From: Pseudorhodobacter antarcticus
Lineage (GTDB): Bacteria > Pseudomonadota > Alphaproteobacteria > Rhodobacterales > Rhodobacteraceae
Direction: 5' to 3'
NCBI GenBank assembly: GCA_945862435.1
Contig: CAMAXX010000014.1
Span: forward strand, 1-64,000
Length of the DNA stretch: 64,000 bases
In this document: positions 10,314 to 60,877 of the stretch, one piece after another
How the letters are laid out: the number at the start of each line of letters is the position of its first letter
Numbering within the stretch: the stretch's first letter is position 1
The notes under the pieces: model-generated
What the model was told of the DNA's origin: nothing
The model's input: the letters and a program-made list of their open reading frames with translations, nothing else
Database searches by the model: none
Translations under genes and position numbers: made by a program

Positions 10314-10367
10314 GCGGGGGTTACACACCCCCGCGCCCCCGTGAGGTATTTTCGCCAATGTGAAAGG
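10314..10367 (+). repeat. Composite repeat copy E1: GC hairpin plus GAGGTATTTtcgcCAATGTGAAAG motif
   Basis: Hairpin gcggggg-ttacaca-cccccgc (10314-10334), then cccccgtgaggtattttcgccaatgtgaaagg (10336-10367). Confidence 0.65.
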
Positions 10368-15168: not shown

Positions 15169-16149
15169 TTAGGCGGTCTTTTCGTCCCGCGTTTTCCAAA
15201 GGGAGAAAAGAATTCCTGCCGCCAAAATTCCCAAGGTTAGGGTCAGCGAAATGGCGGTCGGTACTTTGATACCTAGCGGCACCAAGAAAATCTTGATCCC
15301 CACCAGAACCAGAATAATCGCCAGCGAATATTTCAGATAACTAAAGCGGTGCATTGCGGCGGCAAGTGCAAAGAACAAACTGCGCAGCCCCAAAATAGCG
15401 AAAATATTCGACGTGTAGACGATGAACGTATCTTGCGTGACCGCAAAAATTGCCGGTACAGAATCAACTGCGAAAATCAAATCCACAAATTCTACTAAAA
15501 TCAGCGCGACTGCCAAAGGTGTTAGCCAAGTGACCATTTTGCCCGTTTTCGGATCGGGTTGCTTTACAGTAAAGTCATGGCTTTTGAATTCATTGGTGAC
15601 GCGGAAATGCTTTTTGACGAACTTCAAAACCGCGTTGTTTTCCAGATCGTTGTTTTCGTCACTGGATGAAAACATCTTCACGCCCGAAAAGACCAAGAAC
15701 GCGCCGAAAAGATATAAAATCCACTGATATTGGCTGACCAGCGCCGCGCCCAAGCCAATCATAATCGCCCGCATGACAATCGCACCGATAATGCCCCAGA
15801 ACAGAACGCGATGCTGATATTTGCGCGGCACTGCGAAGTAAGTAAAGATCGTGGCGATCACAAAAATATTGTCCATCGCAAGGGATTGTTCAATCACGTA
15901 GCCCGTAAAAAACTCTAGCCCCGATTGCATGCCACGCGTGTACCAGACCCACAGGCCGAACAGAAACGCGATAAACACGTATCCGCCATACAGCACAAAA
16001 CTTTCCTTGGCGGAAATTTCTTTATCCTCCTTGTGCAGAATCCCAAGGTCAAAGACCAAAAGCGCGATCACAAGACCGATAAAAATCAGCCAGAAATAAG
16101 TAGGAGTCCCAAGGAAGGGTGACACCAGAAACGGCATAAGAAAGTCCAT
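15169..16149 (-). CDS. TerC/Alx-family integral membrane protein
   Basis: Multi-TM; EQSLAMDNIFVIATIFTYFAVPRKYQHRVLFWGIIGAIVMRAIMI and LILVEFVDLIFAVDSVPAIFAVTQDTFIVYTSNIFAILGLRSLFF (TerC signature). Confidence 0.92.
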   Translation of the reverse strand: MDFLMPFLVSPFLGTPTYFWLIFIGLVIALLVFDLGILHKEDKEISAKESFVLYGGYVFIAFLFGLWVWYTRGMQSGLEFFTGYVIEQSLAMDNIFVIATIFTYFAVPRKYQHRVLFWGIIGAIVMRAIMIGLGAALVSQYQWILYLFGAFLVFSGVKMFSSSDENNDLENNAVLKFVKKHFRVTNEFKSHDFTVKQPDPKTGKMVTWLTPLAVALILVEFVDLIFAVDSVPAIFAVTQDTFIVYTSNIFAILGLRSLFFALAAAMHRFSYLKYSLAIILVLVGIKIFLVPLGIKVPTAISLTLTLGILAAGILFSLWKTRDEKTA

Positions 16150-16289
16150 TCAATCCCTCGTCATTTTATTTAGGTATGTTGCGCCCGAGGGCGAACATTC
16201 CGAACTTTGCACTCAAAGTGGTGTGCGGTAGTTAAGAACAAAGCTATTCTGTTCAACCCCAAGGCTGCTATAAATTTTGAAATTTCCTA

Positions 16290-16365
16290 TGGTGACCCCG
16301 GATGGATTCGAACCATCGACCTGCCGCTTAGGAGGCGGCCGCTCTATCCCCTGAGCTACGGGGCC
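16290..16365 (-). tRNA. tRNA-Arg (CCT anticodon), CCA encoded
   Basis: Minus strand GGCCCCGTAGCTCAGGGGATAGAGCGGCCGCCTCCTAAGCGGCAGGTCGATGGTTCGAATCCATCCGGGGTCACCA; acceptor, D, anticodon and T stems close; loop CTCCTAA. Confidence 0.95.
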
Positions 16366-16624
16366 CCAAATAGCAGTAACGTATGTGCCTTATTGCGCGA
16401 AAGGCGCGTGGCGTGCAACTGCTTATCGAAAAAAGGTAAGGGGGAGTGAATTTGGCCCACCACTCCCCCTTGGTTTCCGTTGTGTCTGGGTTGAGAGCTT
16501 GCAGGACGCGCAGGATATCGTTCAGTTTTGCCACTGTTATCGCTAACATATGGTATATTCTGCGCTTGGACAAGGGGGCAAATGGCGCTAGACAGGGGTA
16601 ATTGCTCTAGCACCCGGTAATCTT

Positions 16625-24364: not shown

Positions 24365-24413
24365 GCTGGGGCCTCAGCCCCAGACCCCGAAGGTATTTGA
24401 ATCAGTATGAAAG
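24365..24413 (+). repeat. Composite repeat copy E3, containing the tadA start codon
   Basis: Hairpin gctggggcctcagccccag, then accccgaaggtatttgaatcagtatgaaag. Confidence 0.65.
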
Positions 24414-28300: not shown

Positions 28301-28735
28301 GCGCGGATGGCTGGATGATCGCGGGGGCGTGCCTTCGAGGAAAGTCCGGACTCCATGAAGAAAGGGTGCTGGGTAACGCCCAGCGAGGGCAACCTCAGGG
28401 AAAGCGCCACAGAGAAAAGTCTGCCGCTGTGCGGGGCGTAAGCCCTGCGGATCAGCGGTGATGGTGAAAAGGTGGGGTAAGAGCCCACCGCAGGCTTGGC
28501 AACAAGACTGGCATGGCAAGCCCCACCCGGAGCAATGCCGAATAGGGGCCTTGCGTGGAAAGGTCTGCCCATGTGCCCCCGAGTCTTACTCGGGGGCGGG
28601 CGGAGACCTCCACAGGGAACTTCAGCCCGAAGGCCCGGGTTGGCAGCTTGACCGCCGTGGCAACACGGTTGGCAGAGGAATGATCATCCAAAGGGGTGAC
28701 CCTTGGACAGAATCCGGCTTATAGGCCATCCGCGC
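28301..28735 (+). ncRNA. rnpB: RNase P RNA (bacterial type A)
   Basis: cgaggaaagtccggactcc (P4/CR-I) and gacagaatccggcttata (CR-V/P4'); P1 pairs gcgcggatggc with gccatccgcgc. Confidence 0.93.
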
Positions 28736-28780
28736 AAAACTTCCGCTTAGCTTTGCCCCAAGGGCGGACGCTTCGCGGAA

Positions 28781-28838
28781 GGTATTTGTATCAGTGCGAA
28801 AACCAAAGGCGTTTTTCTTTCATACTGATACAAATACC
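28781..28838. repeat. Inverted pair of composite-repeat motifs (copies E4a/E4b) downstream of rnpB
   Basis: ggtatttgtatcagtgcgaaaa (28781-28802) and tttcatactgatacaaatacc (28818-28838) are near-perfect inverted repeats. Confidence 0.8.
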
Positions 28839-33974: not shown

Positions 33975-34029
33975 GTGACGCGTGGCGTCACAGGCTTACC
34001 CCCGAGGTATTTATGTCAATGTGAAAGGG
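33975..34029 (+). repeat. Composite repeat copy E5
   Basis: Hairpin gtgacgc-gtg-gcgtcac (33975-33991), then acccccgaggtatttatgtcaatgtgaaaggg (33998-34029). Confidence 0.65.
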
Positions 34030-56195: not shown

Positions 56196-57130
56196 GCGCG
56201 CACCTCCTTGTGCAATGCGGGCACTGCGGCCATGTGCGCCATCATGCGGGCGGCCACGCCAATGGCAATGGCTTGGGGATGTTTTCCAAGGATTTGGTCA
56301 CCAATTGGGCACATAATGCGCGAAATATCGGCAGGTGCATGGCCAAGGGCCGCCAGCCGCGCCCTAAACCGCGCCCATTTGGTAGCCGATCCGATCAGCC
56401 CGCAGGCGGCAAAGCCGTGCTTCAGCAATCCATCACACAGCGCCAAATCCAATGCATGGGAAAAGGTCAAAATGACGTGATGCGCGTCCGCTGGGGCCAG
56501 CGCAACGGCGCGGGTGATATCCGCCGCTGGCAGGGCGCGCACCCCGGCAGCAATAATATCTGGAAAGCGCGCCAAATCTGTATCGATCCACGTGATTTCC
56601 ACATCGGGCAGGGGGGCCATAACGCCCACAATCGCACGCCCCACATGCCCCGCCCCCCAAACCCAAACGGGGGTTTTAGGCGCGAAAAACGGCTCAATAA
56701 ACCAGCCCTGATGTAGCGCCGCTTGCACCTTTTGCCCCCGCCGTGCCCCCGCGAGCGCGCGCGCAATGGCCAGCGGCATCGGGCCAGCATTGTTTGAAAT
56801 GGGCCGCACAAAGGCTAGACCATCTGCGGGGGCTTCGCAGAACACTTCAGTCAGCAAACGCACGGATCCGCCGCAACATTGCCCAAGGTTGGGGCCAAGC
56901 GGCACGGCATCAATGCGTGATACCTCGCCAGCGGACAGCATCTCTCGCGCGGTCGCCGCCGCCTGAAACTCCAGCGCGCCTCCGCCAATTGTGCCGTCCT
57001 GCCCGCCCTGCCACACCATCATCCAAGCCCCCATTTCGCGCGGGGCACTTCCCTTGACTTCAGCCACGACAACCCGCGCTATAGGGCCCCGGGCAGCAAT
57101 TGCACGCGCAAGGGCCGCGCGGTCAAACAT
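56192..57130 (-). CDS. xdhC: Xanthine dehydrogenase accessory protein XdhC
   Basis: RVVVAEVKGSAPREMGAWMMV; VWVWGAGHVGRAIVGVMAPLPDVEITWIDTD. Confidence 0.9.
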   Translation of the reverse strand: MFDRAALARAIAARGPIARVVVAEVKGSAPREMGAWMMVWQGGQDGTIGGGALEFQAAATAREMLSAGEVSRIDAVPLGPNLGQCCGGSVRLLTEVFCEAPADGLAFVRPISNNAGPMPLAIARALAGARRGQKVQAALHQGWFIEPFFAPKTPVWVWGAGHVGRAIVGVMAPLPDVEITWIDTDLARFPDIIAAGVRALPAADITRAVALAPADAHHVILTFSHALDLALCDGLLKHGFAACGLIGSATKWARFRARLAALGHAPADISRIMCPIGDQILGKHPQAIAIGVAARMMAHMAAVPALHKEVRA

Positions 57131-59468
57131 CTCGCTGCTCCTGCACGGCAGCCAAAATCCGCTCTGGCGTGGCAGGCGCGTCCATACTTGGATAGCGCGT
57201 CCCATCCCCGCAGGCCGCGACCGCATCCCGCAACGCAAAGAACGCCGAAATCCCCAGCATAAAAGGCGGCTCGCCTACAGCCTTGCTGCGCCCGATGGTA
57301 TCTTCGCGGTTGGGTCGGTTCCACAAATCCACGTTGAAAACGGCGGGCCTATCTGCGCAGGCAGGGATTTTATAAGTGCTGGGCGCGTGGGTTTTAAGCG
57401 CGCCCTTGGCATCCCAAACCAATTCCTCCATCGTCAGCCAACCAGCGCCCTGCACATAGGCCCCCTCGATCTGGCCAATATCCAGCGCAGGGTTCAACGG
57501 GCTGCCGGTATCGTGCAGCATATCTGCGCGCAAAATACGGTTCTCGCCCGTCAAAGTGTCGATCACGACTTCGGTCACTGCCGCGCCATAGGCAAAGTAT
57601 AGGAAAGGCCGCCCGCGCCCTTTCACCCTATCCCAAGTGATTTTGGGCGTAGCGTAATAGCCCGTCGATGACAGGCTAACCCGCGCCTGATAGACCCAGG
57701 CGGCCACTTGGGCAAAGCCAAATACTTCGCCCCCCGCGCTGACCTGTCCAGCCTCGAACAGCACCTCATCTGCGCCCACGCCCACCTTAGCCGCCAAAAA
57801 CTCGGCCATCCGCGCGCGGATGGTTTCGGCCGCATTGCGCGCCGCCATCCCATTCAGATCACTGCCTGAACTGGCCGCCGTGGCAGAGGTATTCGGCACC
57901 TTCGCCGTATCGGTTGCGGTGATTTTTATCGCCCCCACACCCAGCCCAAACACCCCCGCCACCACTTGGGCCACCTTTTGGTTCAGCCCTTGGCCCATCT
58001 CTGTGCCGCCATGGTTAAGTTGCACCGACCCGTCTTGGTACACATGCACCAAAGCCCCCGCCTGGTTCAGCCATGTCAGCGTAAAGGAAATCCCAAATTT
58101 CACAGGTGTCAGCGCTATGCCGCGCTTCAATATCGGGCTTGCTGCATTCCACGCTGCAATCGCGGCTTTGCGCGCGCCGTAGCCTGATGTCTCTTCCAGC
58201 TTTGCAACCAATTCCCGCCCGATGAAATCATCAACAGGCATATGAAAGGGGGTTGTTTGCTCGTCTTTCACATTGACGAAAATACCTTCGCCGAAGGCAT
58301 CCGCCGTTTGCGCCTCCTGATAAAAGTTGGCACGGCGCACAGCGCTAGGGTCGCGCCCCACGGCAAAGGCGATATGATCCATCACCCGTTCCATACCAAT
58401 CATCCCCTGCGGGCCGCCAAATCCGCGAAAGGCCGTGGCGCTTTGGGTGTTGGTTTTTAAGCGGTGGCTGATAATGGCGATATGCGCGATGTGATAGCAG
58501 TTATCGCTGTGTAGCATGGCGCGGTCGGCCACGGGTAGGGACAGGTCTTGCGCCCAGCCGCAGCGGAAATAATGGGTAAACTCAAGCCCAAGCAGCCGCC
58601 CCTCACCATCATGTCCTGCGCGATAGCTAATACGGCAATCGTGCCTCTTACCCGTAATCATCATATCATCATCGCGGTCATAGCGCATTTTGCACGCCTG
58701 CCCTGTCAGGCGCGCGGCAATGGCGCAGGCAATTGCCAGCGCGTTGCCTTGGCTTTCTTTGCCGCCAAACCCGCCCCCCATGCGCCGCACCTCGACCCGC
58801 ACTGCCGACATTGGCAGATGAAAGGCATGGGCAACCTTATGCTGTATCTCGCTTGGGTGCTGGGTGGATGAATAAATATGAAAATCCCCGCCTTCCAGCG
58901 GCAAGGCGGCGGCGACTTGACCCTCTAGGTAGAAATGTTCCTGCCCGCCCACATTGAAAACGCCCGTCAGAACGTGCGGGGCGGCGGTGATGTTGGCACC
59001 AGCATCGCCCTTGGCCCAAACAATTGGGCCTTGCTCAAACCGAGAGTTTGCTGCCAACGCATCGTCTATGGTCAGCAGGGCGGGCAATGGGGCATAGGCA
59101 ACTTTGGCTTTCGCCGCCGCCCGCCGCGCCTGATGGTGCAATGTGGCGATGACCAAAAACACAGGCTGGCCAATGTAATGCACACGGCCCGTGGACAAGA
59201 GCGGCTCGTCATGCGCAGACGGGCTGCAATCGGGCATCTCTGGCGGCAGGCTTTCGGGCCAATCCAAATAGGACAAAACTGCCACCACACCCTCGCTGGC
59301 GCGCACGGCGGACAAGTCCATCGCCGTGATCGTGCCATGGGCGCAAGTTGACAGGCCAAAGGCCAAATGCAGCGCGCCCGCGGGCAGGGGAATATCGTCG
59401 GTATAGCGCGCCGACCCTGCCAGTTGCATCAAAGCGGAATCGTGCGGAAGGGGGGCACCCACGCTCAT
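57123..59468 (-). CDS. xdhB: Xanthine dehydrogenase molybdopterin-binding subunit
   Basis: [73 protein letters not shown]. Confidence 0.95.
58265..58297 (-). repeat. Composite-repeat-like motif (copy E8) inside the xdhB reading frame, sense orientation
   Basis: Minus strand ccttcggcgaaggtattttcgtcaatgtgaaag, matching intergenic copies E1 and E5; encodes [10 protein letters not shown]. Confidence 0.55.
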
Positions 59469-60877
59469 ACGCGCACCTCCATCACCGACGTTTTCGCGCC
59501 CGCCAGATCATGCGCATAACGGACAAGTAAATTCTGCGCGATGGTCAGCCGATAGCCCGCTGATGCACGCATATCCGACAGCGGCGTGAAATCTTGTTCC
59601 ATAAGCGGGGCGATTTGGGCAGCGATTTGCGGGGTTAGAACCTGCCCAATCAGCGCCGCCTCGATTGCGCTGGCCCGTTTCGGAACCCCCGCCATGCCGC
59701 CAAAGGCGATGCGGGCCGAGGTAATTATGCCCCCCGACGCCTCGATATTGAAACAGCCGCAAACTGCAGAAATATCCTGATCGAAGCGTTTAGAAATTTT
59801 ATAGCAGCGCAGGTATTGCGCTGTTTTGGGTATGGTCACGCCCACCACAAATTCGCCCGCGCGGCGATCTTGTTTGCGGTAGTCCAAAAAGAAACCCTCT
59901 AGCGGCAAATTGCGCGTTGTGTCCCCTTGGCGCAAATGCAGCACCGCCGCCAGCGCGATCAGCGCAGGCGGGCCATCGCCAATGGGCGAGCCGTTCGCGA
60001 CGTTGCCACCGATGGTCGCCGCATTGCGAATTTGCGTGCTGGCATAGCGGCGCAAAAGTTCGGCAAAGCTGGGGTGATGCGCGCCCATAGCGATGCGCAA
60101 TGCCTCAATCGTCACACCCGCGCCGATGTGCAGACCATCCCCCAAATCGGTAATCTGCGCCATTTCGGTGATGCCGCCCAGAAAGGCGGTTTTGGGCAAA
60201 TCGCGGTGCAGTTTGTTCACCCACAGCCCCACATCCGTAGCACCGCCAATCAACGTAGCGTCAGGGTGGGCCAGATACCAGCGTGCCAGTTCGTCGATGG
60301 TCTGCGGTCGGAGGGAAAGGGGGCTGTCCGCCCCCTCGCGGCCTCCGCCGCTCACCCCTGAAGGTATTTGTGCCAATGTGAACGCGCTATCGGTTTTCAT
60401 ATGGGCAGGCACGGGCGCGGATTCTGCAGCGCGGGCGGCGCGGATGATGGGGGCATAGCCCGTGCAGCGGCACAGGTTGCCTGCAAGTGTGGTGTCGTGA
60501 TCGGTGTCTCCATTCAAATGCGCTGCCGCCATCGAGGCGATAAATCCAGGCGTGCAAAACCCGCATTGGCTGCCGTGATGGCGGTGCATCTCGCGCTGCA
60601 CAGGGTGGGGGGTGCCATCGGGGGCGGCGATACCTTCAACTGTGCGAATGGCTTTGCCGTGCAACTGGGGCAGGAATAAAATGCAGGCGTTCAGCGCCTT
60701 TGCGCCGTCGGCACCCGTGACAATCACCGTGCAGGCACCGCAATCCCCTTCATTGCAGCCCTCTTTCGTGCCGCATAGCGCGCGGTCTTCCCGCAGATAG
60801 TCCAAAAGCGTGCGTGTGGGGGACACACCCGTTAGCACAACCTGTGTTCCGTTTAGCAAAAACGCAACTTCGGTCAT
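59465..60877 (-). CDS. xdhA: Xanthine dehydrogenase small subunit (2Fe-2S and FAD domains)
   Basis: [10 protein letters not shown]...[59 protein letters not shown]. Confidence 0.95.
60318..60384 (+). repeat. Composite repeat copy E7 inside the xdhA reading frame, antisense to the gene
   Basis: Hairpin agggggctgtccgccccct (60318-60336) plus acccctgaaggtatttgtgccaatgtgaacg (60354-60384). Confidence 0.65.

Follow-up and report, generated by a model that had tools for sequence, protein, structure and literature searches.

The DNA uptake sequences of Neisseriaceae and Pasteurellaceae are dispersed short words that occur in species dialects and in more than 1000 copies, and in the regulon-wide turnover of binding sites many sites change together when the specificity of their recogniser changes. 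Among palindromic repeats, the Rickettsia palindromic elements (RPE) are about 150 bp long, encode a conserved peptide and lie within ORFs in nearly half of the cases (Ogata et al. 2000, 2002, reviewed in PMC10969869), and REP sequences form tag families with GTAG or CGTC at one end of the palindrome (PMC3733652). The repeat described here lies inside the xdhA gene of a Rhodobacteraceae-like assembly of 2.7 Mb and 84% completeness, within a window of 64,000 nucleotides (the whole stretch of DNA that was analysed). A sequence-only reading of this window had proposed that a hairpin and a motif are embedded in frame and antisense in the linker of XdhA, and that they represent a mobile palindromic element resembling those of Rickettsia. 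We found no description of such a repeat in Rhodobacterales, Rhodobacteraceae or Rhodobacter in the open-access literature, nor of the letters of its motif.

The gene xdhA (59465..60877, minus strand, with the start at 60877 and the stop at 59465) encodes the small subunit of xanthine dehydrogenase with its 2Fe-2S and FAD domains. It is intact (470 aa), and no stop interrupts the open frame that carries the element. Direct reading of 60300-60389 places two hairpins and the motif GGTATTTGTGCCAATGTGAA at 60318-60382, antisense and in frame in the linker between the two domains, so that this part of the sequence-only reading is borne out by sequence, coordinates and open frame. Hairpin 1 (AGGGGGC-TGTCC-GCCCCCT, 60318..60336, plus strand, antisense to xdhA) folds, and its sequence, GGGGGCTGTCTGCCCCC, recurs in many xdhA linkers. 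Hairpin 2 (GCGGC-CTCC-GCCGC, 60338..60351, plus strand) also folds, its sequence varying among homologues. The conserved motif (60363..60382, plus strand) has the form GGTATTT-GTG-CCAATGTGAA in the dialect of its own genome, and its opposite strand is translated as F-T-L-A-Q-I-P. The expected number of matches to the 26-mer at 60357-60382 in shuffled sequence is 0. The genome contains GKTATTTNNNNCARTRTGAA 37 times without mismatch, and with up to two mismatches this pattern is found at 64 places, compared to 6 for the reversed control. This is beyond what chance would give, and the xdhA segment belongs to a family of palindromic repeats dispersed over the genome. An AlphaFold2 model of XdhA (12 sequences) was poor overall (pLDDT 64), and the low values of linker residues 164-189 are a weak hint of disorder.

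The present genome contains about 50 copies of this family: 53 motif-like sites were gathered, of which 49 have no mismatch to the broad motif. The general form is [A/G]GTATTT-DNR-Y-CA-R-N-R-TGAAAG, and a hairpin is evident immediately upstream of about half of the copies. A perfect stem of 5 bp or more precedes 27 of the 49 copies, compared to 33 of 128 in shuffled sequence, and hairpins are thus not a constant feature. Congener genomes hold from 20 to about 160 copies each, with the highest number in G003, and other genera of the family up to about 110; in the other alphaproteobacterial families sampled, motif counts were at control level. The hairpin-plus-tail repeat is a Rhodobacteraceae family with tens of copies per genome. 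Inverted pairs are common, with a spacing of 65-66 bp in G003 and of 51-64 bp in several pairs of the present genome.

According to a home-made codon-model gene caller, which called 90% of the window coding, 47 of 52 copies of the present genome are intergenic, and for many of these the genes on both sides are only a few tens of bases away. Clearly mid-gene are only those in xdhA and xdhB (2 of about 52), and three more are at most 36 nt from a called start. Besides the copies in xdhA and xdhB, the window holds five more, all between genes: two with a hairpin (10345..10364 and 34006..34025, both plus strand), one that overlaps a called start codon (24392..24411, plus strand), and an inverted pair (28781..28800, plus strand, with its partner at 28819..28838, minus strand). 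The pair 28781-28838 immediately follows the RNase P RNA gene (28303-28737). In the copies at 10345-10364 and 24392-24411, the last letters of the motif (GTGAAAG or ATGAAAG) fall on the start codon called for the next gene downstream; GAAAGG resembles a ribosome-binding site, and the repeat may join in translation starts.

The second in-frame copy lies 2.1 kb from that in xdhA, in the gene of the large subunit, xdhB (57123..59468, minus strand). It occupies 58267..58297 (minus strand) in sense orientation and adds 11 translated residues between the conserved NFY and TTP. Its short hairpin CCTTC-GGC-GAAGG (58285-58297) overlaps the motif GGTATTTTCGTCAATGTGAA (58267-58286). A copy in this NFY-to-TTP loop is widespread in Rhodobacteraceae, and all 36 xdhB homologues that carry the motif read it in a single frame. 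The nearest approach to an empty-site comparison in xdhB is that of NFY-ASGGDISEKKK-GAQETPY (L053) with NYYRDGQTTHY (L159).

We compared about 3 kb around the copies of the congeners G009, G013 and G011 with the corresponding loci of the present genome. An orthologous counterpart in the same place and orientation exists for 28 of 32 perfect G009 copies and for 27 of 32 G013 copies, which is close to the maximum allowed by an assembly of 84% completeness. The copies of the family are not recently mobile, and their positions are conserved among congeners. Of the proposed mobile palindromic element, the dispersed palindromic family that keeps the frame open and is absent from some relatives therefore stands, while mobility is not supported here, since most G009 and G013 copies have such a counterpart. 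In six xdhA loci from several genera (L125, L129, L137, L149, L151 and L152) a copy, apparently intergenic, is found at a similar distance of about 6 kb downstream from the start of xdhA (near 15970-16400); this comparable spacing suggests that copies between genes may also have kept their positions across genera.

At these stable positions the tail of the motif has been switched in place throughout the genome, from CAAAATGAA/CAAAGTGAA to CAGTATGAA/CAATGTGAA, both xdh copies included. The tails of the present genome are TCAGTATGAA (20 copies) and [CT]CAATGTGAA (19 copies); those of G009 and G013 are CCAAAATGAA and CCAAAGTGAA, and G011 has mainly CCAAAGTGAA. Motif position 13 is T in 44 of 49 copies of the present genome, compared to five T-type copies in G009 and two in G013, numbers which come from a later search and limit the bias of the first G009 and G013 patterns, in which T at this position was excluded. 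In 34 of 40 loci the present genome differs from every ortholog at position 13. Identity at orthologous loci is 17% and 7% at position 13, 100% in TATTT and TGAA and mostly 50-75% in the flanks. Position 13 is A in G011, which branches outside the other three genomes in the XdhA tree, and the state of the present genome is therefore derived. In xdhB the switch replaced AAA (Lys; G013 and G011) by AAT (Asn). Compensatory hairpin changes between congeners are sparse, the 4 pairs at 3 loci being too few for a proof of covariation.

On another branch, G002 has a similar tail. This genome initially looked repeat-poor, but it possesses 75 copies in a dialect of its own, mostly CCAGTATGAA, with a matching xdhA copy, and its sister G014 keeps CCAAGATGAA. 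The same linker and sequence in genomes that lack the repeat elsewhere, which would speak against the proposed mobile element, were not found in the genus. In all eight cases with an intact xdhA copy and a surveyed genome (G000, G002, G009, G013, G011, G014, G019 and G034) the xdhA copy is in the dialect of its genome; in G034 it belongs to the minor subfamily and the xdhB copy to the major one. The three-base spacer GTG of the xdhA copy is common to the present genome, G009 and G013, with the tail changed along with the genome, and this shared spacer is a mark of descent at the xdhA locus. In G003, G014 and G010 two tail subfamilies coexist (e.g. CCAAGATGAA and GACAGATGAA), as if there were two recognisers.

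The explanation that we prefer, with a probability of roughly 0.55, is that the repeat is old and fixed in position, that a co-evolving factor recognises its tail in trans, and that flexible protein segments tolerate it. The tail TATTT-D-N-R-Y-CA-R-N-R-TGAA would be what this factor, in the simplest case a DNA-binding protein, recognises, and if the specificity of the recogniser shifts in a lineage, the sites would follow, including the two inside xdhAB. The added residues would be harmless in a domain linker (xdhA) and a surface loop (xdhB), and because they fall in such tolerant segments, we propose that evolution at the DNA level dictates these amino acids. A REP/REPIN-like or chromosome-organising role would fit best, since each genome has from tens to about 160 sites, most of which occupy short gaps between genes, often in inverted pairs. 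A more general formulation, for which we would not quite offer even odds, is that in Rhodobacteraceae the hairpin and the bipartite word form fixed chromosome-wide sites with a putative reader, and that the dialect of these sites is replaced nearly everywhere at once during the divergence of lineages, overriding constraint at the protein level in genes that contain a site, such as xdhA and xdhB. The in-frame copies changed in step with nearly all others and without moving, so a DNA-level process writes part of the amino-acid sequence of xanthine dehydrogenase.

Several observations speak against a co-evolving recogniser, among them the decay of some xdhA copies, the copies that have no hairpin and the scarcity of compensatory changes. 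In addition, identity at the three spacer positions is 57% for the present genome and G009, compared to 83% for G009 and G013, a difference that conversion could explain. In the present lineage the change extends over the spacer as well as the tail. Concerted evolution by conversion, in which copies overwrite one another through recombination or a short templated repair product as in recombineering, would spread a tail by molecular drive without any binding factor and is the main rival explanation, albeit a rather unlikely one. Some spacer-tail words do recur among the copies of the present genome, and at some orthologous loci the hairpins have been replaced, for example at 10345 of the window. 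However, spacers are varied within every genome, with at least 12 different triplets among the 49 copies of the present one, and the xdhA triplet GTG was retained in three genomes while the tail differs. It would also be unusual for conversion tracts to span no more than a few bases and leave the flanks unchanged.

The distribution of the element was surveyed in the xdhA linkers of 30 relatives and of about 45 named genomes. The element is found at the same site and in the same orientation and motif frame in homologues from most of the genus, Rhodobacter capsulatus, Phaeobacter sp. HF9A, two Rhodosalinus species, Tritonibacter aquimaris, Thioclava dalianensis, Stagnihabitans tardus and several metagenome-assembled genomes; the xdhA homologues of relatives are 56-90% identical. 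It is absent from Tabrizicola, Pseudooceanicola, Celeribacter, Planktomarina and others, and also from the congener G012, which yet has more than 50 copies elsewhere in its genome. The sequence-only reading had asked whether the linker segment is absent or variable in relatives, and indeed linkers measure 45-55 aa in most lineages without the element (52 aa in Tabrizicola and G012) and 57-91 aa in those that carry it. The linkers compared have drifted too far for an exact empty site to be demonstrated in xdhA. The crystallised XdhA of R. capsulatus (PDB 1jro and 2w3r, matched by homologue L128) contains the element-encoded peptide FTLAQLSSGVRGQTAPAFLP, which makes the addition compatible with a stable, folded enzyme. 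In G001, G003, G004, G005, G006, G008 and G010 the xdhA copies are degenerate or mere hairpin relics; since they decay in genomes that retain the family, no single site is indispensable.

Selfish DNA of the RPE or REP type that re-inserts, with the xdhA linker as a tolerant hot spot for the current subfamily of each genome, would account for the match between the xdhA copy and the dialect of its genome. It would also agree with the patchy presence on the XdhA tree calculated without the linker, where presence is clustered but requires 14 changes, compared to 24.5 with shuffled labels (0 of 500 as low); this test scored G003 as absent (motif with three mismatches), although G003 carries the element by eye. 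Extra palindromes and tandem units in the linkers of L041, L043, L138 and L152 point in the same direction. Beside the element, L041 (the G013 linker) and L043 (G003) have additional perfect palindromes in frame (GCCTGCGAAGCTTTGCTTCGCAGGC; AAAATTCTTCTGCGAAGAATTTT), as if hairpins were gained as units. In L152 (10001-11479) and L138 (10001-11473), from Tritonibacter aquimaris and Pelagimonas, the 5' hairpin arm is multiplied in frame (AEPPSDQTVAEPPLNQTGAEPP; ADSPPLTHAADSPPLADPADS). We nevertheless consider re-insertion doubtful. The motif has one orientation and one frame in all 27 xdhA copies with up to two mismatches, the exception being one decayed copy (Sulfitobacter L127), and likewise in the 36 xdhB copies. 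The remaining antisense frames of most tails are open as well, and stop codons thus do not force a common frame. Because orientation and frame are the same in the 27 xdhA copies, the simplest reading points to a single old insertion with inheritance (or constraint) and not to repeated mobility. Orthologous positions are conserved across the genus, and the RAYT/Y1 transposase profile PF01797 found no match in the present genome (84% complete), in G003 with its approximately 160 copies, or in G014, G001, G016 and G019, and only weak borderline matches in G005 and G006.

A function at the RNA level, as terminator, mRNA stabiliser or sRNA target with a tail that pairs with a co-evolving RNA, appears improbable. 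Stable hairpins lie directly upstream of the motif and many copies follow directly on stop codons or occupy operon gaps, as one would expect of such an element, but both orientations occur, the motif being co-directional with neighbouring genes in 24 cases and opposed to them in 12, the element in xdhA is antisense, and some copies are mid-gene. Rfam covariance models gave no match at the gathering score in the window and the locus, and only chance-level scores at the locus.

The hairpin of the xdhA element bears on what is conserved. The same DNA, GGGGGCTGTCTGCCCCC, occurs across genera and is read in all three frames (in about 14, 5 and 7 xdhA linkers), giving GADSP, GQTAP/GGSAP and GRQPP/GAEPP, respectively; the frames of loop variants were assigned by hand (L119 to frame 2, L134 to frame 1). 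Since a conserved hairpin is read in every frame, conservation concerns its nucleotides and not its peptide. The idea of a conserved peptide, in which an ordinary Gly/Ala/Pro-rich linker, as is often found between flavoprotein domains, resembles the repeat by chance or convergence, is refuted by the different peptides that the same hairpin DNA gives in its three frames and by a motif that is common to dozens of intergenic copies and follows the genome-wide switch of the tail.

The family offers a clean case in which the inherited position of a repeat can be separated from its rewritten sequence, at tens of loci and in congeneric species. This bears on what maintains short bacterial palindromic repeats without a transposase, and it concerns residues chosen by DNA-level forces in a well-studied enzyme, whose crystallised Rhodobacter representative includes the peptide. 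The genome-specific dialects should make the putative factor findable by pull-down or by family-wide co-variation.

In comparison with known systems, the likeness to RPE holds in outcome, since these, too, are palindromic repeats that lie in frame in alphaproteobacterial protein genes and are translated where the protein tolerates them (here in xdhA and xdhB). It does not extend to membership. Instead of about 150 bp with a conserved peptide, what is conserved here is a 20-nt motif next to a variable hairpin, and this hairpin is translated in three different frames. Copies throughout the genome have been rewritten without changing place, and only about 2 of 52 copies are mid-gene (about 47 of 52 intergenic), whereas about half of the RPE are intragenic. 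With DNA uptake sequences the family shares dialects, copies between and inside genes and frequent inverted pairs, but it has about 50-160 copies of a bipartite word of about 19-20 nt with a hairpin. As in regulon-wide turnover many sites change together; however, those of the present family occupy operon gaps, gene ends and gene interiors on either strand, and not promoters. The inverted pairs also resemble the terminal repeats of MITEs. From REP sequences the family differs in its conserved part, a 20-nt tail (TATTT...TGAA) outside the hairpin instead of a GTAG or CGTC tag, in positions that are conserved between species while the tails change, and, from RAYT-linked REP, in the lack of a RAYT/Y1 transposase in most host genomes tested. 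What it has in common with REP, BIME and REPIN (PMC2817692, PMC3733652) are tens to more than 100 short hairpin copies, mostly intergenic and in genome-specific versions, and inverted pairs at a set spacing, here 65-66 bp in G003.
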